A DNA stretch of 33,585 bases from a bacterium. GTDB lineage: Bacteria > Campylobacterota > Campylobacteria > Campylobacterales > Sulfurovaceae. How positions within the stretch are numbered: position 1 is the first letter of the stretch; each line of letters begins with the position of its first letter. Below the pieces are notes generated by a model that did no database searches, was not told the DNA's origin, and saw only the letters and a list, made by a program, of their open reading frames with translations. Shown in pieces: positions 2 to 11,417 of this stretch. The position numbers were made by a program, and so were the translations under genes. The stretch covers positions 1-33,585 of the forward strand of contig JAHJJU010000029.1 in the NCBI GenBank assembly GCA_018822805.1, written 5' to 3'.

Positions 2-463
2 CTTAGAGTTCATGGACAATCAAAACGTTACCATCATCAATACATTGGAATGGGTGGAAGAATGGATACGATTCAGTGTGCCGTCGTAAATGTTAAACTC
101 AAACATTATGAGAAAGATTTGGCTTTACGTCAAGAAGTAGCAGAGAAATATAATTCAAAATTAAACATTCAAAATTCAAAATTAATAATACCTTTTGTAG
201 ATGAAAATGCTACTTCTGCTTGGGCTCAATATTCGGTGAGGGTTCAAAATAGAGATAGCGTTCAAGCGAAGTTAAAAGAGAAAGGGATTCCTACAGCTGT
301 GCATTATCCTATGCCTTTACATTTACAAGAGTGTTTTGCTTATTTGGGATATAAAAAAGGGGATTTTCCTATTGCTGAATTGGTTTCTAGTGAGATCATG
401 TCTTTGCCTATGAATTCTTATCTGAGGGATGATGAGATAGGGTATATTTGTGAGAATCTATAA
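2..463 (+). CDS. DegT/DnrJ/EryC1/StrS sugar aminotransferase, C-terminal part (cut by left edge)
   Basis: This is the C-terminal end of a PLP-dependent nucleotide-sugar aminotransferase; the frame is open to the left edge, so the true start lies outside the window. The segment RVHGQSKRYHHQYIGMGGR (bases 5-61), followed by MDTIQCAVV, is the post-lysine region typical of the DegT/WbpE family, where the sugar and PLP phosphate are bound. The active-site lysine lies upstream and is not visible. The family transfers an amino group from glutamate to a keto-sugar nucleotide in the cytoplasm. The stop codon directly abuts the TTG start of the flippase, so it is the first visible gene of the glycan operon. 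It carries a 21-base in-frame duplication giving NSKLNIQ/NSKLIIP. The family call is firm; the substrate is unknown. Confidence 0.85.
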   Translation, partial: LRVHGQSKRYHHQYIGMGGRMDTIQCAVVNVKLKHYEKDLALRQEVAEKYNSKLNIQNSKLIIPFVDENATSAWAQYSVRVQNRDSVQAKLKEKGIPTAVHYPMPLHLQECFAYLGYKKGDFPIAELVSSEIMSLPMNSYLRDDEIGYICENL

Positions 464-1816
464 TTGTTAAAAAAACTCAAACCAAAATCTGAATTTTCTC
501 GTAATGTTTTAACGTTGATGACGGGAACGACTATTGCACAAGCTATTCCTATTGCTATTAGTCCTATTTTAACACGGATTTATACTCCTGAAGATTTTGG
601 TTTATTTGCATTATATATAAGTATAGCTGCTATCATTTCAGTGGTTGCTACAGGGCGATATGAACTAGCTATAATGCTTCCTAAGAAGGATGGAGATGCT
701 GCTAATATTGTTGTTTTATCATTTTTACTGTCATTTTTAGTAAGTTTTATATCTTTTTTAATAGTTTTTATTTTTAATACACAACTTGCTAATTTACTTG
801 GAAATCCTGAAATATCTTCTTGGCTATATTTTATTCCTATTACCGTGTTATTAACGGGAGTTTATCAAAGTTTTAATTATTGGAGCAATAGAAAAAAACA
901 ATATAAAAGATTGGCTACAAGTCGAGTGGTTCAAAGTGGAGTAACAGCTACAACTAATCTTGGTATGGGATTTAATGGTTTTGGTAGTAGTGGACTTCTT
1001 ATTGGGACAATTGCTGGTCAAATGATTGCCACAACAGTTTTGGCTAAGATGGTGATAAAAGAAGATATTACGATATTTAAAAAAGTTAAAAAGATTAAGA
1101 TATTTGCTTTGGCAAGAAGATATGTTAAGTTTCCGAAGTTTGATATATGGTCAGCTCTTTTTAATACATCTTCATCTAGTTCACCTATTATTTTGTTAGG
1201 GATATTTTTTAATAGTGCTGTTGTAGGGTTTTATTCATTGTCGTATCGAATTTTAAGTTTACCAATAGCATTTATTAGTAGTTCGATAGCACAAGTCTTT
1301 TTAGAAGAATCATCAAAAGTTAGAAATAATAAAGAAAAATTACATAATTTAACACAATTGACTTTTAAAAAGCTTTTTTATCTTGGATTATTTCCAATGA
1401 TTTTGATAGGTGTGTATGGTGACTATGCATTTTATTTTATATTTGGAGAAAAGTGGAAAATTGCTGGAGAATATGCACAAGTTCTATCTATATGGCTTTT
1501 TTTTGTATTTCTAATTTCACCACTTTCAACTATTTTGATTACACTTGAGAAACAAAAAGAAGCATTGTATTTTAATATATTAATGTTGACATCTCGGATA
1601 TTGGCTCTTTGTTTGGGGTATTATATTTTTAATGATGCATTTAAGACAATTATATTATTTACTTGTGTGGGAACATTCTTTTGGATAGGAATGATGTTAT
1701 ATATTTTTAAACTTGTTAATATTAAATTACAAGAATTATACTTTTTGAGTTTTTTAGCTATTATATCAATTGTATTTTTTAGTATAATTAGAAGAATTAT
1801 ACTAGGAGAAGGATGA
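464..1816 (+). CDS. Wzx-type oligosaccharide flippase
   Basis: A 450-residue, strongly hydrophobic protein with about 12 predicted membrane segments, the size and layout of the polysaccharide-biosynthesis flippase family (MOP superfamily, Wzx/RfbX). These proteins move undecaprenyl-linked repeat units across the inner membrane. The N-terminus reads SEFSRNVLTLMTGTTIAQ followed by SPILTRIYTPEDFGLF, a hallmark of this family's first helices. The start is a TTG immediately after the preceding stop codon; it is preferred because the conserved N-terminus begins there and no ATG lies upstream in frame. The next gene starts inside its last codons (ATGA at 1813-1816), implying translational coupling. 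The substrate glycan cannot be read from sequence. Confidence 0.88.
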   Translation: MLKKLKPKSEFSRNVLTLMTGTTIAQAIPIAISPILTRIYTPEDFGLFALYISIAAIISVVATGRYELAIMLPKKDGDAANIVVLSFLLSFLVSFISFLIVFIFNTQLANLLGNPEISSWLYFIPITVLLTGVYQSFNYWSNRKKQYKRLATSRVVQSGVTATTNLGMGFNGFGSSGLLIGTIAGQMIATTVLAKMVIKEDITIFKKVKKIKIFALARRYVKFPKFDIWSALFNTSSSSSPIILLGIFFNSAVVGFYSLSYRILSLPIAFISSSIAQVFLEESSKVRNNKEKLHNLTQLTFKKLFYLGLFPMILIGVYGDYAFYFIFGEKWKIAGEYAQVLSIWLFFVFLISPLSTILITLEKQKEALYFNILMLTSRILALCLGYYIFNDAFKTIILFTCVGTFFWIGMMLYIFKLVNIKLQELYFLSFLAIISIVFFSIIRRIILGEG

Positions 1817-3156
1817 TAATGTTATTAATATATAGATTAAAGTTTTATTTTGGCTTAAGTATTATAAATTTTGGTATTCTAAAAGCATACTATTCTTTGA
1901 CAAAAACCAATAAACTAACGTTAAAAGAATTAGAAGAACTTCAAAATAACAAACTTAGACAAATTATAAATTATAGTTATTATAATATTCCTTATTATAA
2001 AAAAACATTTGATAGTAAAAATATAAAGCCATCAGACATATATACAGTAAAAGATTTATATAAATTACCTATTTTAACTAAAAGTGACATTCGTAAAAAT
2101 ATTGATGATTTTTATCCTATTCATAAAAATAATATTCAGTATTCTAATGCATCAACAGGAGGTTCTACAGGTGAACCTTTAAAATACAGAGTAAGTAAAT
2201 TTAGTTCAGAAATGAGTTTTGCTATATTATTGAGAGGATGGGGATTAGGTGGCTATAAATTAGGGGATAAAGTAGTGATTATTGCTGGTGGTTCTCTTGT
2301 TGGGAGAGATATATCTTTAAAAAGTAAAATTGTAGATTATGTATTAAATTTTAGATCATATTCATCTTATGGTGTCAATGATACTTTGTTAAAGCAATAT
2401 ACAGATGATATGATTGAGTGGAATCCTAAATATATAAGAGGTTATGCATCAGCCATATTTTTATTAGCTGAATATGTATATAAAAATAATTTAGAATCGA
2501 AATTTAATATTAAAGGTGTGTTTACTACTTCTGAAATGCTTTTGGATAAACAAAGAGAATTTATATCGAAAGTTTTTACTTCAGATGTATTTGATACTTA
2601 TGGTTTAAATGATGGAGCTATAACTGCATTTGAATGTCAGACTCATCAAGGTAAACATATTGATATGGAAAGAGGTCTTTTGGAAGTTGTTGATGATGAT
2701 GGACACTGTATTTATAATCAAGAAGGTTATATTTTAGCAACGACATTAATGGAATATTCAATGCCATTAATTCGGTATGATACTGGAGATATTGGTATCC
2801 TTTCTGATGAAAAATGTTCTTGTTCTATAGAAAGACCTTTATTAAAAGAATTAAAAGGTAGAGTTACTGATACGTTGAAATTAAATGGTATATTAATTGC
2901 AAGTCCTATTATAACAGTTCTTATGGGAAAAACTAATGTATTACAATATCAATTTATTCAAATAGAGCATAACAAATTAAAAATCAAGATATTAAAATCT
3001 AAAAATTATACTGATGAAGATGAAGTATTTATTATAGAGTCCTTGACTAGTCATGTTGGTAATATTGTAATAGAATTTGAATATGTTAATATGTTTTCTA
3101 TCGAGGATGATAAAAAACATAAATTTATCATAAATATGATTGATGAAAAATGTTAG
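1813..3156 (+). CDS. CapK/PaaK-like AMP-forming ligase (phenylacetate-CoA ligase family) of a glycan locus
   Basis: A 447-residue ANL-superfamily adenylating enzyme of the CapK type. Visible motifs in order: the nucleotide-binding loop ASTGGSTGEP at about residues 113-122, the adenine-side motif YGLND at 263-267, the RYDTGD ribose-binding motif at 321-326, and the hinge region LKGRVTDTLKLNG after residue 346. A CSC pair sits at 335-337, where this family often has a Cys motif. Family members activate a carboxylic acid as its adenylate; in polysaccharide loci the acid and acceptor are generally unknown. It overlaps the flippase by 4 bases and the polymerase by 7. An ATG at 1819 is an alternative start. 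Inference: it may activate an acyl group placed on a sugar by the GNAT-like protein at 5394. Confidence 0.82.
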   Translation: MIMLLIYRLKFYFGLSIINFGILKAYYSLTKTNKLTLKELEELQNNKLRQIINYSYYNIPYYKKTFDSKNIKPSDIYTVKDLYKLPILTKSDIRKNIDDFYPIHKNNIQYSNASTGGSTGEPLKYRVSKFSSEMSFAILLRGWGLGGYKLGDKVVIIAGGSLVGRDISLKSKIVDYVLNFRSYSSYGVNDTLLKQYTDDMIEWNPKYIRGYASAIFLLAEYVYKNNLESKFNIKGVFTTSEMLLDKQREFISKVFTSDVFDTYGLNDGAITAFECQTHQGKHIDMERGLLEVVDDDGHCIYNQEGYILATTLMEYSMPLIRYDTGDIGILSDEKCSCSIERPLLKELKGRVTDTLKLNGILIASPIITVLMGKTNVLQYQFIQIEHNKLKIKILKSKNYTDEDEVFIIESLTSHVGNIVIEFEYVNMFSIEDDKKHKFIINMIDEKC

Positions 3157-4280
3157 AAAAAAATACTAAATATGGAATATTTACACCATTTATTATCTTA
3201 TATATATTATTTAATGGTATTAGTATTACCCTTAATATATCATCCGTTCTTAATTATTATATCTTTTTAGTTTTTGTTATATTATTAATATCATTTACAG
3301 TTGCAAATAAATTTGATTATTATAAGGTAGACTTCTCTTTTTTACAAGATAATAAAGTTGTTAATAGAATTTTTTTATTTACTTCTTTGATTATAATAAT
3401 ATTTGCATTGATAAATAAAAACCATATATTTGATATATTAAATTATAAAAATCTTTTATTAGATAAGTATGATATTCGGCTTAATGGAATTGATGTTCCT
3501 CAGTATAGTGTATTTTTTGTTAATATTGTGATTTTACATTTAGCACTAACTTGTGTATTCTTGGTACAAAGAAATAAATATAGATATATTTTTGCTTCAG
3601 CTTTATATATATTATTCTATATGTATTCTTTGCAAAAAGCTCCGATAGTAACTATGTTTGTAATTCATTTTTTATTATATATTCACTTTTTTAAAATAAA
3701 TTTAAAATTTATTTTACTCTCATTAAGCTTTTTAGCTATAGTGATGATGTTTTTTTTCTTTACAGTATTTGGTAGTTTTGATATTAATAATCTTACTTTA
3801 TTAACTTCTGCTATTATACATAGAATTACTTTAGCAGGTGATTTGGTTCTTGCTACATATAATTATTTTGATGAGGCACCTTTATTGAATGGGGCATCAT
3901 TCCCTATATTCTTTGGTGTAATAGATTTAAATGTATTTGAAGGAGATAGTATTAGTTTAACTTCTCTGATGATGTCGATTTATTATGGTCAAAGCTTTGG
4001 AGGAGCAAATAGTTCTTTTATTACAGATGGATTTGCAAATTTTGGATATGGATTTGATATATTAATGATTTTTATAGTTATTTTCTACCTTTATATCATG
4101 ATTTATTTATCAAAAATATTACTAGATAATGTCTTTCAGCAACTCTATAAATTAATGATACTTTTAACTATTATCAATCTTGTGCATATTCAATTTTGGA
4201 GTTTTCTGGAGTCATTGGTTTTTTTTCTTTTAATATTAAAAAGTATAAATATGCTAACAAGGATAAGAGTTGAAAAATAA
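3150..4280 (+). CDS. Wzy-like O-antigen/oligosaccharide repeat-unit polymerase
   Basis: A 376-residue protein made almost entirely of hydrophobic segments (roughly ten), with a longer non-membrane stretch around residues 225-285 that would be the large periplasmic loop typical of Wzy polymerases. Wzy proteins join lipid-linked repeat units at the periplasmic face of the inner membrane; they share little sequence and are recognised by topology and position. Position supports the call: it lies in an operon with a flippase and glycosyltransferases, and a Wzz-like regulator is nearby. It overlaps the neighbours on both sides. Base composition is extremely AT-rich (11 G/C in the 60 bases 3421-3480). 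It could instead be another polytopic glycan enzyme such as an acyltransferase, though no acyltransferase motif is seen. Confidence 0.7.
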   Translation: MLEKNTKYGIFTPFIILYILFNGISITLNISSVLNYYIFLVFVILLISFTVANKFDYYKVDFSFLQDNKVVNRIFLFTSLIIIIFALINKNHIFDILNYKNLLLDKYDIRLNGIDVPQYSVFFVNIVILHLALTCVFLVQRNKYRYIFASALYILFYMYSLQKAPIVTMFVIHFLLYIHFFKINLKFILLSLSFLAIVMMFFFFTVFGSFDINNLTLLTSAIIHRITLAGDLVLATYNYFDEAPLLNGASFPIFFGVIDLNVFEGDSISLTSLMMSIYYGQSFGGANSSFITDGFANFGYGFDILMIFIVIFYLYIMIYLSKILLDNVFQQLYKLMILLTIINLVHIQFWSFLESLVFFLLILKSINMLTRIRVEK

Positions 4281-5397
4281 AGTAACATCAATAGTATTAA
4301 ATAATTTTAAAAATGATAGTAGAGTTTTAAAAGAAAATATATCATTACAAAATGCAGGATATAAGGTGTTGATTGTGGCTCTTCATGAAGAACCATTAGA
4401 CGAATTTGACAAAGTTCAAGGTGTTGATGTTCATAGAATCAAATTAAAAAGTATCACTTGGTCTAAAAATTTATTTATGAGTATGTTAAAATATATGGAG
4501 TGGTCTTATAGAATAATTAAACTTTATAGAAAAAGTGATATTGTTCACTGTAACGATTTAAGTGCATTACCTGTAGGTGTAGCAATAAAATATTTTAATA
4601 AAAATGTAAAAATAGTTTATGATGCACATGAATATGAGACAGAAGTAGATGGTTTAAATGGTATGAGGAAGACATTAACAAAATTTTTTGAGAAATTTTT
4701 GATTAAGTATGTAGATAAAACAATAACTGTGAGTAATGCTATTGCAAATGAATATGTTCGATTATATAACATACCTAAACCCTCATTAGTTTTAAATACA
4801 CCTCCTTATAAAGAGATAGAAAAAAAAGATATATTTAGAGAAGCACTAAATATACAAAAAGATAAAACAATTTTCTTATATCAAGGTGGATTAAGTGGAG
4901 GTAGAGGGATTGAGATACTTCTTGATACATTTAAATTAATAAATGATGAAAAAAGTGTAATAGTATTTATGGGATATGGTCCTTTAGAAAATCTAATTCA
5001 AGAAGCTTCTAAAAGGTATAAAAATATTTATTTTCATAAGGCAGTGACTCCAGATGTATTATTAGATTATACATGTAGTGCAGATTTTGGAATACTTTTT
5101 TATGAAAATAGTTGTTTAAATCATTATTATTGTTCTCCTAATAAAATGTTTGAGTATTTGATGGCAGAAATACCTGTCATTGTATCTAGCCTTTATGAAA
5201 TGAAAAGGTTAGTTGAGGATTATAATATAGGAGAAGTTGCTTTTGAAAATACATCTAGAGGGTTGAAAAAAGCTATTGAAAAAGCTAGTAATTTAGATCA
5301 AGAAGAGTTACATAAAAACATACAAAAAGTAAAAGAAGTTTATAATTGGGAAGAGCAAGAAAAATTTTTACTTGAAGTTTATGGAGAGTTAAAGTGA
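4270..5397 (+). CDS. GT4-family glycosyltransferase (copy 1 of a paralogous pair)
   Basis: A 375-residue GT-B fold glycosyltransferase. The N-terminal domain has HCND at residues 93-96 and YDAHEYETE at 117-125. The C-terminal nucleotide-sugar domain starts with LYQGGLSGGRG near 203 and contains SPNKMFEYLMAE at 289-300, the GT4 donor-binding helix with its conserved glutamate. Such enzymes add one sugar from an NDP-sugar to the growing lipid-linked oligosaccharide at the cytoplasmic face. The start is TTG, 11 bases inside the polymerase gene; no better start is seen. The protein is clearly paralogous to the 375-residue protein at 6880-8007: HCND, DAHEYETE, VLNTP.YKE, LYQGG and YNWEEQE are shared at matching positions. 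Donor and acceptor are unknown. Confidence 0.88.
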   Translation: MKNKVTSIVLNNFKNDSRVLKENISLQNAGYKVLIVALHEEPLDEFDKVQGVDVHRIKLKSITWSKNLFMSMLKYMEWSYRIIKLYRKSDIVHCNDLSALPVGVAIKYFNKNVKIVYDAHEYETEVDGLNGMRKTLTKFFEKFLIKYVDKTITVSNAIANEYVRLYNIPKPSLVLNTPPYKEIEKKDIFREALNIQKDKTIFLYQGGLSGGRGIEILLDTFKLINDEKSVIVFMGYGPLENLIQEASKRYKNIYFHKAVTPDVLLDYTCSADFGILFYENSCLNHYYCSPNKMFEYLMAEIPVIVSSLYEMKRLVEDYNIGEVAFENTSRGLKKAIEKASNLDQEELHKNIQKVKEVYNWEEQEKFLLEVYGELK

Positions 5398-6110
5398 TAA
5401 ATAAAGTTTCCAATTTTATTATAAAAATAAAAGAAATTCTGCAGTTACCTAAAGTAGGTATAAAATTTTGTAATTCCAATTATGATACAGTTGAAAAATA
5501 TGAAAAAACATATCAATACTTTACACAGCTACATAGATTAAAATTATTTCAAAATAAGACTGTAGGGGTAGCATTAGTTGATTTAAATTTATATGAAAAT
5601 TTTGATGTATATTATAAATCAATAAATGGTAAAAATTCTGCAGCATATTACAGTAGAAAAGCCATAAAACGAGAATACCACTTTATTGAGATTGATAGAA
5701 ATAATTATGTTGATGATATATATGATATAAATACTTCTACACAAATAAGACAAGGTCAAATGATGACAGAGAATTATTTAAGTAAAATAAATAGTTATAA
5801 AAATGAAACAAATCATAATTCTTATGGTGTTGTAAATAAAGACAAGAAATTATTAGCTTATTGCAATATTGGATTTTATGGTGAATTTGCTTTGGTTGTA
5901 ACTTTACTTGGACATAAAAAATATTTAAATGATGGAATTATGTATCTTATGATGATAGAGGTCAATAAGATTATGTTTGAAAAATATAGAAATCGGGGAT
6001 ATTCGTATATCATGTATGATACATTCCTTGGTGCAAGTACAGGGCTTAAAAAGTTTAAAGAAAAACTGGGATATAAACCATATAAGGTAAAATGGTTATG
6101 GGAAAATTAA
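5394..6110 (+). CDS. GNAT-like acyltransferase-fold protein of the glycan cluster
   Basis: A 238-residue soluble protein, not firmly recognised. The C-terminal half looks like an acyl-CoA N-acyltransferase (GNAT) fold: YGVVNKDKKLLAYC at about residues 144-157 would be beta strands, LLGHKKYLNDGIMYLMMIEV (171-190) would correspond to the acyl-CoA-binding turn and helix, and FLGASTGLKKFKEKLGYKP (211-229) matches the usual GNAT ending, where a Gly-x-Lys-x-F helix is followed by a GY/GF strand. The N-terminal 110 residues have no visible motif. The start is GTG overlapping the previous stop (GTGA at 5394-5397). It sits between a glycosyltransferase and a deacetylase-like gene, so acylation of an amino sugar is a plausible role. 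That role is inference. Confidence 0.55.
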   Translation: MINKVSNFIIKIKEILQLPKVGIKFCNSNYDTVEKYEKTYQYFTQLHRLKLFQNKTVGVALVDLNLYENFDVYYKSINGKNSAAYYSRKAIKREYHFIEIDRNNYVDDIYDINTSTQIRQGQMMTENYLSKINSYKNETNHNSYGVVNKDKKLLAYCNIGFYGEFALVVTLLGHKKYLNDGIMYLMMIEVNKIMFEKYRNRGYSYIMYDTFLGASTGLKKFKEKLGYKPYKVKWLWEN

Positions 6111-6886
6111 CGATAGTTAAAAATAGAGTTTATGCAGATTATTTAATGCCATCACGTATGGAAGAGTATGAAGATATATTAAAAAGTACACTTGATTCGG
6201 GATATGAATATATAACAGTTAGAGATTATTATGATAAGTTATCGCAAAATAAATTAGAAAATAAAAAATATTTTGTTAATAGGCATGACATTGATACAGA
6301 TAAAAAGATGGCAAGAATCTTTTTTGAAATAGAAAAAAAATATAATGTAAGAGCAACTTATTATTTTAGACTTTCTACATTAGATATAGAGTTAATGAAA
6401 GAGATAGAAGCTTATGGAAGTGAAGCAAGTTATCATTTTGAAGAGATTGCAACTTATTGCAAACAACATCATCTGAAATCACAAAAAAACGTATTTGAGA
6501 ATATGGAAAATATACAAAAATTATTTAAAAAAAATTTTAGAATGATAGAAAATGCACTAGGTTCAAAACTTCAAACAGTTTGCAGTCATGGGGATTTCGT
6601 TAACAGGAAACTTGCTCTAACTAATGTTGCGATTATTAAATCACAAGGACTTCGAGAAGAGTTAGGTATTGTTTGTGAAACTTATGATAAAATTTTTAAA
6701 GATAGTTTTGATATTTATGTTGCTGATAGACCTTATCCGCTTTATTATACGCCAGAAAACATATTTAAATGTATAGGAAAATATGATAAAATTTATATGC
6801 TCTCTCATCCTAGACAATGGAGAAGTAATATAATTGTAAATACAATTGAGAATTTAAAAAGAGTATATGAGGATATTAAATGGTAA
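6092..6886 (+). CDS. Polysaccharide deacetylase-like (NodB-homology) protein
   Basis: A 264-residue protein with signs of the NodB/CE4 deacetylase fold: RHDIDTD at residues 64-70 (the Asp and metal-site motif of the family, here D-x-D), ATYYFRL at 88-94, YHFEE at 114-118, SHGD at 165-168 and LSHPRQW at 237-243, the last giving the terminal catalytic-type His. No signal peptide is seen, so it should act in the cytoplasm, unlike peptidoglycan deacetylases. This family removes N- or O-acetyl groups, and divergent cytoplasmic members are common in glycan loci. The canonical HxxxH metal-binding pair is not evident, so catalytic competence is uncertain. It overlaps the GNAT-like gene by 19 bases; ATG at 6098 is an alternative start. 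Confidence 0.7.
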   Translation: MVMGKLTIVKNRVYADYLMPSRMEEYEDILKSTLDSGYEYITVRDYYDKLSQNKLENKKYFVNRHDIDTDKKMARIFFEIEKKYNVRATYYFRLSTLDIELMKEIEAYGSEASYHFEEIATYCKQHHLKSQKNVFENMENIQKLFKKNFRMIENALGSKLQTVCSHGDFVNRKLALTNVAIIKSQGLREELGIVCETYDKIFKDSFDIYVADRPYPLYYTPENIFKCIGKYDKIYMLSHPRQWRSNIIVNTIENLKRVYEDIKW

Positions 6887-8007
6887 AGGTAGCAAATTTT
6901 GTATTTAACTCTTTTATTAATGATAGTAGGGTATTAAAAGAGTCTTTATCTCTATCTCATAATGGTTATGAAGTAACTATCATTGCACATCTTGATAAAA
7001 ATTTAAAAGTAGAAGAAGAAATAGAAAAAGTTTCTATTCGAAGAGTTGCTTATCTTGATAGAACTGTTACAAAAGGGAAGATAGGTAAATTAAGAGCTTA
7101 TTTAAAGTATATAAGAGAAAGTATTGTCTATGCTAAAACTTTTGATATCTTACATTGTAATGATATTAATACACTTCCTATAGGTATAATAATAAAAAAA
7201 TTTTACAATAATAATGCAAAAATAATTTATGATGCTCATGAGTATGAAACCGAAACTTATGCTCTTTATGGTATTCAGAAACATATTGTAAAGTGGACAG
7301 AAAAATTTCTTATTAAGCATTGTGATAAAATCATTACTGTTAGTGATTCTATTGCTCATGAATATGTAAAATTATATGGCATAAAAAAGCCAGCACTGGT
7401 TTTAAATACACCCTCATATAAAGAAGTTGAAAAATATGATAAGTTTAGAGAAGCATTTGGGATAGAGGGGAAAACCATATTTTTGTATCAGGGTGGGTTG
7501 AGTAGAAACAGAGGTCTTGAATTACTTATAGAAGTTTTTAAAACTATTAATGATACTGGCAATGTAATAATTTTTATGGGCTATGGTGACTTAGAAGAAC
7601 TTATTGTAACAGCTGCAAAAGAAAATAGTAATATTTATTTCCATAAGGCTGTATCTCCAAATGTATTATTGGAGTATACTGTATCGGCTGACTTTGGGAT
7701 TTCAACCATAGAAGATAGTTGTTTAAGTTATCGTTATTGTCTTCCTAATAAATTGTTTGAATATATGATGGTTGAGGTACCAGTGATTGTGTCAAATCTT
7801 CCTGAAATGAGTAAGGTGGTGAAAGACAACGGTATAGGTGTAGTTGTAGAAGAAGAGAATGTACAAGGGATTATAAAAGCTATAAAACAAGCACTAGCTT
7901 TAAATAAGAAAGAGATAAATGAAAATCTTAAAAAAGCAAAAGAGATTTATAATTGGGAAGAGCAGGAGAGAGTTTTGTTAGAAGTATATAAGGAGTTAAA
8001 TTTATGA
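6880..8007 (+). CDS. GT4-family glycosyltransferase (copy 2 of a paralogous pair)
   Basis: A 375-residue GT-B glycosyltransferase with the same motif order as the gene at 4270: NDSRVLKES near the N-terminus, HCND in the first domain, YDAHEYETE, LYQGGLSRNRG opening the second domain, and LPNKLFEYMMVE in the donor-binding helix. Its length equals copy 1, and residues match over most of the protein, most closely in the C-terminal domain, so the pair arose by duplication. The N-terminal acceptor domain has diverged more, which would fit different acceptors with a similar donor. Start ATG at 6880 overlaps the deacetylase-like stop by 7 bases; the stop overlaps the wecB start. It likely adds one sugar to the lipid-linked intermediate; specificity is unknown. 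Confidence 0.88.
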   Translation: MVKVANFVFNSFINDSRVLKESLSLSHNGYEVTIIAHLDKNLKVEEEIEKVSIRRVAYLDRTVTKGKIGKLRAYLKYIRESIVYAKTFDILHCNDINTLPIGIIIKKFYNNNAKIIYDAHEYETETYALYGIQKHIVKWTEKFLIKHCDKIITVSDSIAHEYVKLYGIKKPALVLNTPSYKEVEKYDKFREAFGIEGKTIFLYQGGLSRNRGLELLIEVFKTINDTGNVIIFMGYGDLEELIVTAAKENSNIYFHKAVSPNVLLEYTVSADFGISTIEDSCLSYRYCLPNKLFEYMMVEVPVIVSNLPEMSKVVKDNGIGVVVEEENVQGIIKAIKQALALNKKEINENLKKAKEIYNWEEQERVLLEVYKELNL

Positions 8008-9065
8008 AAATAGTAACCATACTAGGGGCAAGACCACAGTTTATAAAAGCAGGAACAGTGAGTCGAGAAATAATGAAATATGATGAGATAGAAGAAGTTA
8101 TAGTGCATACAGGACAACATTATGATGCCAATATGTCAGATATATTTTTTGAAGAGATGCAGATACCAAAACCTGATTATAATCTGGATATTAATGGTTT
8201 AGGGCATGGTGCCATGACAGGACAGATGCTTGAAAAAATAGAAGAGGTTCTTTTAAAAGAAAAACCTGACTGTGTAGTAGTTTATGGTGATACAAATTCA
8301 ACAATTGCAGGAGCTTTGGCTGCGTCTAAACTACATATAAAAGTGGTTCATGTAGAAGCAGGACTACGTTCTTTTAACATGAATATGCCTGAAGAAGTTA
8401 ATCGTATTTTGACCGATAGAATAAGTAATATTTTATTTTGTCCAACACAAAGTGCTATAGACAATTTGGAGAATGAAGGTTATAATAATTTGGACATCAA
8501 AATAGTGAAAAATGGTGATGTAATGCAAGATGGAGCGATTTTTTATAAAGATTTAGCTGTAAAACCAAAAGTAGAATTGGAATATGAATATATATTGTCG
8601 ACTATTCATAGGGCTGAAAATACAGATGACTTAGAACGACTAAAAGGGATAGTAGATGCTCTTAATGAAATAGCTAAAGAGATTCAAATAGTATTACCTC
8701 TTCATCCTAGAACAAAAGCAATACTTGAACAGAATAATATGAAAGCAAATTTTACTATTATAGAGCCAGTGGGATACTTGGAAATGGTTTATTTAATAAA
8801 AAATTCAAAACTCGTTATGACAGATAGTGGAGGACTCCAAAAAGAAGCATTTTTCTTTGAAAAGCCTTGTATTACATTACGTGATGAGACTGAGTGGATA
8901 GAACTCACAGATAATGGTTTTAATATCTTGGTTGGATCAGACAAAGAGAAAATACTAGAGACTTATAAAAATTATTCGTCATTGTTTACTATGGATTATT
9001 CATTAAATCTCTATGGTGATGGAAACGCAAGTGAAAAGATAATAAAAGAGTTGATTAATGCGTAA
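8004..9065 (+). CDS. wecB: UDP-N-acetylglucosamine 2-epimerase (non-hydrolysing)
   Basis: A 353-residue cytoplasmic enzyme interconverting UDP-GlcNAc and UDP-ManNAc (WecB/MnaA family). Family signatures: GARPQFIKAG at residues 8-17, HTGQHYD at 35-41, YGDTNST at 94-100 (D96), HVEAGLRSFN at 116-125 (E118), PEEVNR at 129-134 (E131) and STIHRAEN at 199-206 (H202). D96, E118, E131 and H202 match the catalytic residues known for the E. coli enzyme, so it should be active. Length fits the family (about 370). It lies between two glycosyltransferase genes with ATGA overlap upstream and an 8-base overlap downstream. The product UDP-ManNAc, or a derivative of it, is a likely building block of the glycan. 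No ManNAc dehydrogenase (WecC type) is visible in the window. Confidence 0.93.
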   Translation: MKIVTILGARPQFIKAGTVSREIMKYDEIEEVIVHTGQHYDANMSDIFFEEMQIPKPDYNLDINGLGHGAMTGQMLEKIEEVLLKEKPDCVVVYGDTNSTIAGALAASKLHIKVVHVEAGLRSFNMNMPEEVNRILTDRISNILFCPTQSAIDNLENEGYNNLDIKIVKNGDVMQDGAIFYKDLAVKPKVELEYEYILSTIHRAENTDDLERLKGIVDALNEIAKEIQIVLPLHPRTKAILEQNNMKANFTIIEPVGYLEMVYLIKNSKLVMTDSGGLQKEAFFFEKPCITLRDETEWIELTDNGFNILVGSDKEKILETYKNYSSLFTMDYSLNLYGDGNASEKIIKELINA

Positions 9066-10281
9066 AACCATTTGGTTCTTCAATGATTATGCAGGTTCAA
9101 AGTATCATGGAATGGAATTTAGAAATTATTATGTCGCTCGTGAGTTGCTGAAGCTTGGGCACAAGGTGATAATCGTTTCTGCATCGTATATGCATCTTTT
9201 TAAAAAATTACCTAAAATAGATGGCGAGTATACTTTTGAAAATATAGATGGCATAGAGTATATTTGGATAGATGTTCCTCATTATACAACGTCTACTGAT
9301 AAAAAGAGAGTATGGAAATGGTTTGTCTTTGTAAAAAAACTTTATGGTTTACCTGTAGATAAAATGGGAAAGCCTGATTATGTGATAGCCAGTCCTATGG
9401 CACCATTTTTAATTAAACCAGCATATCATTTTGCAAAGAAATTTAATGCAAAACTTATTTATGAAGTAAAAGATATTTGGCCTTTATCGTTGATGGAACT
9501 TGGGGGCTATAGTAAACATCATCCTTTTATATTTTTAATGCAAAAATTTGCAAACTATGCTTATGAAAAATCTGATTTAACCATTACGGTTTTATCCAAT
9601 GCTTTTAATTATATGCAAAAACATGGTTTAGTGGCTGAAAAATTTAAATACATACCCAATGGTATTTCACTTGAAGATATGGAAGAGAATAAAAAGCTCA
9701 ACAGTATAACATTAGCGAGTTTACCTAAAGAGAGTTTTTTAGTTGGTTATACAGGGACAATTGGAATTGCTAATGCATTAGACTCTTTTGTTGAATCAGC
9801 AGAATATTTAAAAGATTATCCTTCTATTAAACTTCTTCTGATCGGGGAGGGGAAAGAGAAAATAAAACTAAAATCCATTGTACTTGAAAAACAATTAACA
9901 AATGTTTGTTTTATCGATGAAATTCCTAAAAATGAAGTTCAAAGTTTACTTTGTTTTTTGGATGTTTGTTATATTGGTTTACAGAAAAAACTAATCTTTG
10001 AGTATGGTGTTTCTCCTAATAAGTTATTTGACTATCTTTATGCTTCTAAACCCATTTTATATGGTGTAAATGATAAAAAAAGTATTGTTGAGAAATCTCA
10101 ATCAGGTGTGACTGTATTCTCTGATAATCCTAAAAGTATAGCAGATGGGATAATAAAATTATATAAGTTAAATGAAGAGGAACGAACACAGATGGGTAAA
10201 AATGGAAAAAAGTATGTTTTAAAACATCATACCTATGAAAATATAGCCAAAGAATTTATAAAAACATTAGAGGAGTTATAA
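9058..10281 (+). CDS. GT4-family glycosyltransferase (WbuB-like)
   Basis: A 407-residue GT-B glycosyltransferase of a different lineage from the 375-residue pair. The N-terminus reads IWFFNDYAGSKYHGMEFRNY, the pattern of WbuB-type amino-sugar transferases, followed by ASPMAPFLIKPAYHFAKKF and YEVKDIWPLSLMELG in the acceptor domain. The C-terminal domain has VGYTGTIGIANALDSFVE, LLLIGEGKEK and SPNKLFDYLYASKPI, the GT4 donor site. It probably transfers an N-acetylated deoxy-hexosamine or hexosamine to the lipid-linked chain. It overlaps wecB by 8 bases and is followed after 2 bases by the second aminotransferase, so it belongs to the same operon. The family is sure; the sugar specificity is a guess from resemblance only. 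Confidence 0.87.
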   Translation: MRKTIWFFNDYAGSKYHGMEFRNYYVARELLKLGHKVIIVSASYMHLFKKLPKIDGEYTFENIDGIEYIWIDVPHYTTSTDKKRVWKWFVFVKKLYGLPVDKMGKPDYVIASPMAPFLIKPAYHFAKKFNAKLIYEVKDIWPLSLMELGGYSKHHPFIFLMQKFANYAYEKSDLTITVLSNAFNYMQKHGLVAEKFKYIPNGISLEDMEENKKLNSITLASLPKESFLVGYTGTIGIANALDSFVESAEYLKDYPSIKLLLIGEGKEKIKLKSIVLEKQLTNVCFIDEIPKNEVQSLLCFLDVCYIGLQKKLIFEYGVSPNKLFDYLYASKPILYGVNDKKSIVEKSQSGVTVFSDNPKSIADGIIKLYKLNEEERTQMGKNGKKYVLKHHTYENIAKEFIKTLEEL

Positions 10282-10283
10282 AA

Positions 10284-11417
10284 ATGTGGAAAGTAGAACT
10301 ATTTGCACCAAACTATGATGAGAGAGAGTCTCAAGCTGTAAATGAAGTGCTTGATAGTCGTTGGTTAACTATGGGTGAAAAGACAAAGACATTTGAGAGT
10401 AATTTTTCAGAGATGTTAGGAGAAAATGTAAAATGTACAGCTCTTTCTTCAGCAACTGCAGCATTACATATTTCACTTATGGCCTTAGATATAGGAGAAG
10501 GTGATGAGGTTATCATTCCAGCATTAACATTTGTCGCTGATATTAATGTGGTGCGTATAGTTGGTGCGACACCAGTCTTAGCTGATTGTAGCAGTTATAG
10601 TGATTGGAATGTATCTGCAGAAACAATAGAAAGGCAGATTTCAGAGAAAACAAAAGCAGTAATTATTGTACATTTTGCTGGATATCCTTGTCAAATGGAT
10701 GAGATAGTAGAGCTTTGTAATGATAGAGGTATAGCACTTATAGAAGATGTTGCTCATGCACCTGGAGCAACATATAAAGGTCAAAAATGTGGTACATTTG
10801 GTGATTATGGTTGTTTTAGTTTTTTTACTAATAAGAATCTTTCTGTAGGTGAGGGAGGAATGCTTAGTAGTAAATCTGAGAAACTTGATCAGCAAGGGAA
10901 ATATTTTAGAAGTCATGGAATGACAGCTTTAACGTTAGATAGACATAAAGGTCGAGCTATTACTTATGATATCGCTCAATCAGGTTTAAATTATCGCATA
11001 GATGAGATTCGTTCGAGTTTGGGATTAGTACAGTTGGATAAACTTTCTCTTGCTAATAAGAGTAGAAAAGTATTAGTAGAACGTTATATTTTAAACTTAA
11101 AAGATGTAAAAGGGATAACAATACCTTTTTTAGAATTAAAAAATATTGAATCTGTTTATCATATCTTTCCTCTCTTATTGAGTGAAAGTATAGATAGGGT
11201 GGATTTAATCGGTAAATTAAAAGTAGAAGGTATTCAATCATCTATTCATTATCCTGCATTTAAAGATTTTACAGCATTTAAAGATATAGGTTTAAATAGT
11301 GCATCTATCGCAGAAGATATTGCTATGCGTGAGTTGACATTACCACTTTATCCTACAATGGGTTTGGAACAAGTAGATTTTGTTTGTAATGGGTTGAAAA
11401 AATCTTTAGGAAATTGA
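10284..11417 (+). CDS. DegT/DnrJ/EryC1/StrS nucleotide-sugar aminotransferase
   Basis: A full-length 377-residue PLP enzyme. The fold-type I pattern is complete: LSSATAALHISLMAL at about 54-68 (phosphate-binding turn), IPALTFVADINVV near 78-90, IEDVAHAPGATYKG at 152-165 (Asp contacting the pyridine nitrogen) and FSFFTNKNLSVGEGGM at 178-193, with K184 as the Schiff-base lysine. It would aminate a keto-sugar nucleotide, presumably one made by a dehydratase such as that at 11547. AGGAG at 10271-10275 gives a good ribosome site for the ATG. It is the last gene of the long operon; a 129-base gap with a promoter follows. The sequence differs from the partial aminotransferase at the left edge, so the locus encodes at least two. 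Confidence 0.92.
   Translation: MWKVELFAPNYDERESQAVNEVLDSRWLTMGEKTKTFESNFSEMLGENVKCTALSSATAALHISLMALDIGEGDEVIIPALTFVADINVVRIVGATPVLADCSSYSDWNVSAETIERQISEKTKAVIIVHFAGYPCQMDEIVELCNDRGIALIEDVAHAPGATYKGQKCGTFGDYGCFSFFTNKNLSVGEGGMLSSKSEKLDQQGKYFRSHGMTALTLDRHKGRAITYDIAQSGLNYRIDEIRSSLGLVQLDKLSLANKSRKVLVERYILNLKDVKGITIPFLELKNIESVYHIFPLLLSESIDRVDLIGKLKVEGIQSSIHYPAFKDFTAFKDIGLNSASIAEDIAMRELTLPLYPTMGLEQVDFVCNGLKKSLGN

Follow-up and report, generated by a model that had tools for sequence, protein, structure and literature searches.

How the amino sugars of a bacterial surface glycan are modified, and which genes of a locus act together in doing so, is the question raised by a glycan locus of a Campylobacterales bacterium of the family Sulfurovaceae. 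The window analysed here is a stretch of 33,585 nt of contig JAHJJU010000029.1 (GCA_018822805.1) and its genes form part of a Wzx/Wzy-type glycan locus (Table 1). The original prediction, made from the sequence alone, had grouped a CapK-like ligase, a GNAT-like protein of 238 residues and a NodB-type deacetylase into one module for the acyl modification of a sugar. The transferase and the deacetylase of this module are a conserved pair. No ligase gene was found in the other loci containing them, within the sequence covered, and the CapK triad is not a conserved unit.

A conserved transferase-deacetylase pair

The gene of the 238-residue protein and the NodB-like gene were found adjacent and in the same order in all four intact loci, namely the window, a Flavobacteriales metagenome-assembled genome (MAG, locus L032), Campylobacter gastrosuis (L033) and a Sulfuricurvum MAG (L034, same genome as G494), that is, three in Campylobacterota and one in Flavobacteriales. 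In these loci the NodB gene begins inside the transferase gene, with 19-20 bp shared. In a fifth locus (L005, genome G049) all that is left of the transferase gene is its 3' end, immediately before the NodB gene and with the same junction. The family of the 238-residue protein is rare, since only these three intact homologues and one remnant were found besides the window. Plasmids contained no relatives of it, and viral contigs contained none of either protein. Compared to the window proteins, the three transferase homologues were 55, 54 and 46% identical and their NodB partners 56, 57 and 50%, and this parallel course is expected if both genes move together.

The NodB protein alone might be what matters, producing free amines in the glycan, with a transferase that is accessory or modifies something else. 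NodB homologues without an intact transferase do exist in G049, where only the remnant is left, and in G216, where the gene stands alone. Set against this are the adjacency in four of four intact loci and the recurrence of the coupling in unrelated FemAB-CE4 pairs (see below), and we regard this explanation as quite improbable.

The degraded transferase 3' end of L005 (about 10550-10676), followed by an intact NodB gene, amounts to a naturally occurring knock-out, and a free amine could be visible in the glycan of this bacterium. The homologue in G216 (L014:8399-9184, 50% identity) is located after an rplS-like gene, away from glycan genes in the sequence covered. A candidate paralogue of the transferase in L034 (12592-13437) was discarded because no similarity was found. 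The C. gastrosuis locus also contains a gene for an N-acetyl sugar amidotransferase (WbuX, TIGR03573; L033:7735-8850), and its glycan probably bears an acetamidino sugar as well.

A FemX-like GNAT fold

The 238-residue protein gave no match in Pfam or NCBIfam. The GNAT-like C-terminal half noticed in its sequence was borne out by the AlphaFold2 model (four sequences, pLDDT 80.5), in which residues 96-235 follow the complete GNAT order b-a-a-b-b-b-a-b-a-b. When this model was compared with the PDB by Foldseek, the best 17 matches were all aminoacyl-tRNA-dependent transferases or their C-terminal domains, with Sbb17/Sba18, FemX and L-PGS/A-PGS/MprF at the top (E 4e-8 to 3e-5), and the first acetyl-CoA (coenzyme A) GNAT ranked after this group (E 5e-5). 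Profile comparison by hhalign pointed in the same direction. Against eight proteins from the phylum with a Pfam FemAB match the probability was 85-88% with a score of 46-48 (P=6e-6), compared to a maximum of 20.5 in 60 column-shuffled controls and 14 with the reversed alignment; a first comparison, with four FemAB-like proteins, had not been significant. Acetyl-CoA GNATs (six from the same genome and one relative) scored 16 and were rejected as relatives for want of any profile similarity. A weak match to adenylate kinase (E 0.005) was local and got no support from the fold, and the basic isoelectric point of the protein was uninformative as a sign of tRNA binding, the acetyl-CoA GNATs of the genome being equally basic.

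Residues F221-K222 are invariant among the homologues and align with the F-K of FemAB proteins, which in turn, when positions are counted along the alignment, falls on F304-K305 of the FemX chain. This dyad is essential in FemX (PMC4964394), and so is the equivalent lysine, Lys329, in DhpH-C (PMC12945691). The P-loop by which GNATs bind CoA has the consensus Q/R-x-x-G-x-G/A and lies before helix alpha3 (PMC4964394). It is not present in the 238-residue protein, in which the site reads L178-N179-D180-G181-I182-M183. GNAT folds are usually CoA-dependent and some CoA-dependent members, for example MtAAC(2')-Ic, have an atypical P-loop (PMC4964394), and the same pair could use acetyl-CoA, or another common acyl-CoA, supplied by central metabolism, the acetyl or acyl group being moved or swapped rather than an amino acid added. 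Given the FemX-like ranking by both Foldseek and hhalign, together with the F-K dyad, we consider such a donor unlikely.

The NodB-like protein

Neither a signal peptide nor a membrane segment was found in the NodB-like protein, which should accordingly act in the cytoplasm, before export. No Pfam match was obtained, including PF01522 and PF22537. However, the residues of its putative active site (H65, D66, H115, H166, D212 and H239) are the same in all of 11 divergent relatives and D68 is kept in 10 of the 11, so that both the Asp pair of CE4 motif 1 (D66 and D68) and the His of motif 5 (H239) are present. These invariant residues argue for a working metal hydrolase. The structural model was weak (pLDDT 67) and its best fold matches were CE4 deacetylases with TM-scores of about 0.33-0.40.

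FemAB-CE4 coupling across the phylum

The association of FemAB-like and CE4-type genes is not restricted to the window family. In 249 genomes of the phylum, seven loci with a Pfam-detectable FemAB were found and all seven have a CE4-type gene either fused or within about 1.5 kb. The genomes concerned carry 0-4 Pfam-detectable CE4 genes each, so chance proximity would be expected at the percent level, with the reservation that the loci are not all independent, three of them coming from one genus. The most direct case is a protein of 645 residues in L084/L086 that carries PF13480 and PF01522, both above cut-off. FemAB and CE4-type neighbours overlap in L088 and L090 and are separated by one gene in L087, and in both L087 and L088 the CE4-like gene matches Pfam below the cut-off. 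In L089 a WbmS-like protein (PF22537, E 1e-60) is found near the FemAB-like gene. The CE4 genes of L083 and L085 are of the TFDIDW type and resemble the one of L089. Proteins distantly related to the NodB protein of the window are encoded adjacent or close to FemAB/Acetyltransf_6 genes (L015, L016) or to genes for formyltransferases (L018, L019), neighbourhoods that are consistent with a deacetylation followed by re-acylation.

The fused gene (L084:466-2403, the same as L086:8347-10284 on the minus strand) encodes two domains, one FemAB/Acetyltransf_6 and the other a CE4 deacetylase of the TFDYELF type. In one genus (L089:6253-11149, L083 and L085) FemAB-like, formyltransferase-like and CE4/WbmS-like genes occur together, which suggests alternative acyl groups for the same exposed amine.

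The CapK-like ligase

The ligase resembles PaaK/CapK-like ANL enzymes both in sequence (NCBIfam DVU_1553 family, E 1e-38, below the family cut-off; PaaK in the PDB, 5e-22) and in its intact core motifs STGGSTGEP (residue 114), RYDTGD (321) and GRVTD (349). Among 299 genomes of the order its relatives reached about 31% identity at most, the best of them lying at 25-32%, and they had varied contexts in the loci read. The original prediction was that this enzyme converts an unusual acid to acyl-CoA or acyl-AMP and that the GNAT protein places the acyl group on the exposed amine. The three genes do lie in a single overlapping run, with no other obvious acyltransferase in the window for the product of a ligase whose motifs are intact. 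Moreover, CapK-like, FemAB-like and CE4-like genes, all of other subfamilies, occur together in L074 and L087, and a CapK-like gene directly precedes a different CE4-like protein in L069-L072. Nevertheless, the three families were not found together in L005, L032, L033 or L034, which have no CapK-like gene in the sequence covered (in L033 and L034 some 20 kb surrounding the pair; L032 is a short contig of 5 kb), so that there the pair would work without the ligase, and the transferase has the FemX dyad and no CoA P-loop signature. Such a lack of co-occurrence is the outcome that the original prediction had itself named as refuting the triad. The genome has just two acyl-carrier genes, both unlinked. 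Altogether a ligase-fed transferase appears doubtful, and the CapK-like ligase is probably a neighbour rather than a required part of the pair.

The pairing seen in L069-L072 (L069:676-3062, L070:6307-8594, L071:46-2403 and L072:7815-10102) is a second combination of ligase and deacetylase-like genes. In several genomes belonging to one family, a CapK-like ligase gene is immediately followed by a TLDYELF-type CE4-like gene, outside glycan loci within the sequence covered.

A proposed model of deacetylation and re-acylation

We propose that the cytoplasmic CE4-type enzyme would strip the N-acetyl group from an amino sugar, either in the nascent repeat unit or in a nucleotide sugar, leaving a free amine on which the co-translated FemX-like enzyme would form an amide. 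The donor would most likely be the amino acid of an aminoacyl-tRNA rather than a CoA-bound acyl group, since the catalytic site is of the FemX type and ligase and carrier genes are absent in the other loci; with this donor neither a ligase nor a carrier would be needed. By the same fold similarity to FemX, MprF and Sbb17, the F-K dyad and the lack of a P-loop, the ligase-activated acid on CoA or a carrier that had been put forward becomes the less likely source. This would place an N-aminoacyl sugar in the surface glycan. Bacterial glycans in which amino acids are N-linked to amino sugars are known (PMC10609480).

These statements do not all have the same strength. On balance the evidence favours, by some way short of certainty, that the transferase-NodB pair takes the acyl group off a sugar amine and acylates it anew. 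For the full statement, deacetylation plus FemX-like re-acylation with an aminoacyl donor favoured but not fixed, we see the arguments as evenly poised. The strictest form, in which a single-domain FemX-like enzyme transfers an amino acid from aminoacyl-tRNA to the deacetylated sugar of an O-antigen-type glycan, is tentative and would need more to be right than we expect.

Several observations weigh against the model. Only five loci are known for the pair. The 238-residue protein has no significant hidden Markov model (HMM) match to FemAB (Pfam PF02388 and the NCBIfam FemAB models) or to any GNAT family, and its fold TM-scores are moderate (0.5-0.56). Where FemABX enzymes have two GNAT domains, it has a single complete one and a partial layer at the N-terminus, and for this reason we call it FemX-like and not a member of FemABX. 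In the NodB clade the second metal-binding His of the canonical CE4 motif 2 (H-x3-H) is absent throughout, H115 being kept with E or D at H+2. Finally, no donor is proven for the FemAB-like proteins of Gram-negative glycan loci, such as HfsK.

A 2,3-diamino uronic acid may serve as the acceptor. Genes that, from their order and what is known of the pathway, we take to be WlbA/B/E-like lie ahead of the pair in L005, L033 and L034. The window itself starts within the aminotransferase gene that corresponds to them, and another contig of the same genome ends in a WlbA fragment. As WlbA was present in 45 out of 200 genomes of this order, the link of the pair to this pathway is suggestive only, and weak.

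Gene content of the locus

The open reading frames and gene descriptions of the original prediction were correct, including the single overlapping run, which extends from 464 to 10281 with every gene overlapping the next one. After the genes in Table 1 come a glycosyltransferase family 4 (GT4), an aminotransferase, a CapD-like and a sugar transferase gene and then, on the opposite strand, nucleotidyltransferase, Wzz and Wza genes. As in the window, a glycosyltransferase gene is located immediately 5' of the pair in L032, L033 and L034, and in L033 a gene of the UDP-N-acetylglucosamine (UDP-GlcNAc) 2-epimerase family, also present in the window, lies immediately 3' of it. The two GT4 genes that bracket the pair in the window are paralogous (53.8% identity over 372 residues by blastp), as if the pair had been inserted between duplicates. 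The contig begins within the aminotransferase gene and a WlbA fragment ends contig C75 (1-705) of the same genome; both contigs are probably neighbours in the chromosome.

Table 1 Features of the glycan locus at the start of the window
Feature	Position	Strand	Remarks
DegT-type aminotransferase, 3' end	2-463	+	Full-length relatives come after WlbA/WlbB-like genes (2,3-diamino uronic acid); 74% identical to G049 gene
Wzx-type flippase	464-1816	+	Pfam Polysacc_synt_3, 4e-34
PaaK/CapK-like ANL ligase	1813-3156	+	Same operon; probably outside the conserved pair
Wzy-like polymerase candidate	3150-4280	+	Weak TIGR04370; many hydrophobic segments
GT4 glycosyltransferase, upstream of pair	4270-5397	+	Pfam GT4/GT1
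FemX-like GNAT-fold transferase, 238 residues, core of pair	5394-6110	+	GNAT domain about residues 96-235; F221-K222 dyad
NodB/CE4-like deacetylase, 264 residues, no signal peptide	6092-6886	+	Start overlaps the 5394-6110 gene by 19 bp
GT4 glycosyltransferase, downstream of pair	6880-8007	+	Pfam; paralogue of 4270-5397
Non-hydrolysing UDP-GlcNAc 2-epimerase family (WecB/WbpI type)	8004-9065	+	TIGR00236, 2e-102

Comparison with known systems

The closest published case is HfsH/HfsK of the Caulobacter crescentus holdfast (PMC5362036), which like the window pair combines a putative polysaccharide deacetylase with a FemX-like GNAT-fold protein, both acting on a surface polysaccharide. Its authors proposed that amines freed by HfsH might be acylated by HfsK (PMC5362036). 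HfsK, a protein of two GNAT domains, binds cyclic di-GMP, whereas the smaller window protein has one complete domain, is unrecognised by family models and belongs to a Wzx/Wzy heteropolysaccharide locus. A FemAB protein (TIGR03019) and a polysaccharide deacetylase (TIGR03006) are also named together by NCBIfam, in the exopolysaccharide system of XrtA/PEP-CTERM. Several FemAB-like proteins of the phylum match TIGR03019 below cut-off, but the window proteins differ in matching neither model. With FemX (FemABX) and Sbb17/Sba18 the window transferase has in common the GNAT fold and the F-K dyad. It differs from them in having one full GNAT domain instead of two, in being only about 12-14% identical and in its acceptor, which would be a glycan precursor. 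The structures of Sbb17 and Sba18 were solved with streptothrisamine, which the related Orf11 glycylates using Gly-tRNA (PMC12945691). On the deacetylase side, the WbmS-like proteins (PF22537), named after a gene of a Bordetella O-antigen locus, are CE4-like too, although the window NodB protein does not match this family.

To our knowledge, the enzymes that attach N-linked amino acids to the sugars of bacterial glycans are largely unassigned. A compact unit of two genes with a FemX-like dyad, echoed in unrelated FemAB-CE4 pairs and in one fusion, makes the question of this attachment testable. If the model is true, deacetylase plus FemX-like transferase would be a general way of making the N-aminoacyl sugars that are known from the chemistry of glycans, and the charged tRNAs of translation would be linked to the diversity of surface glycans.

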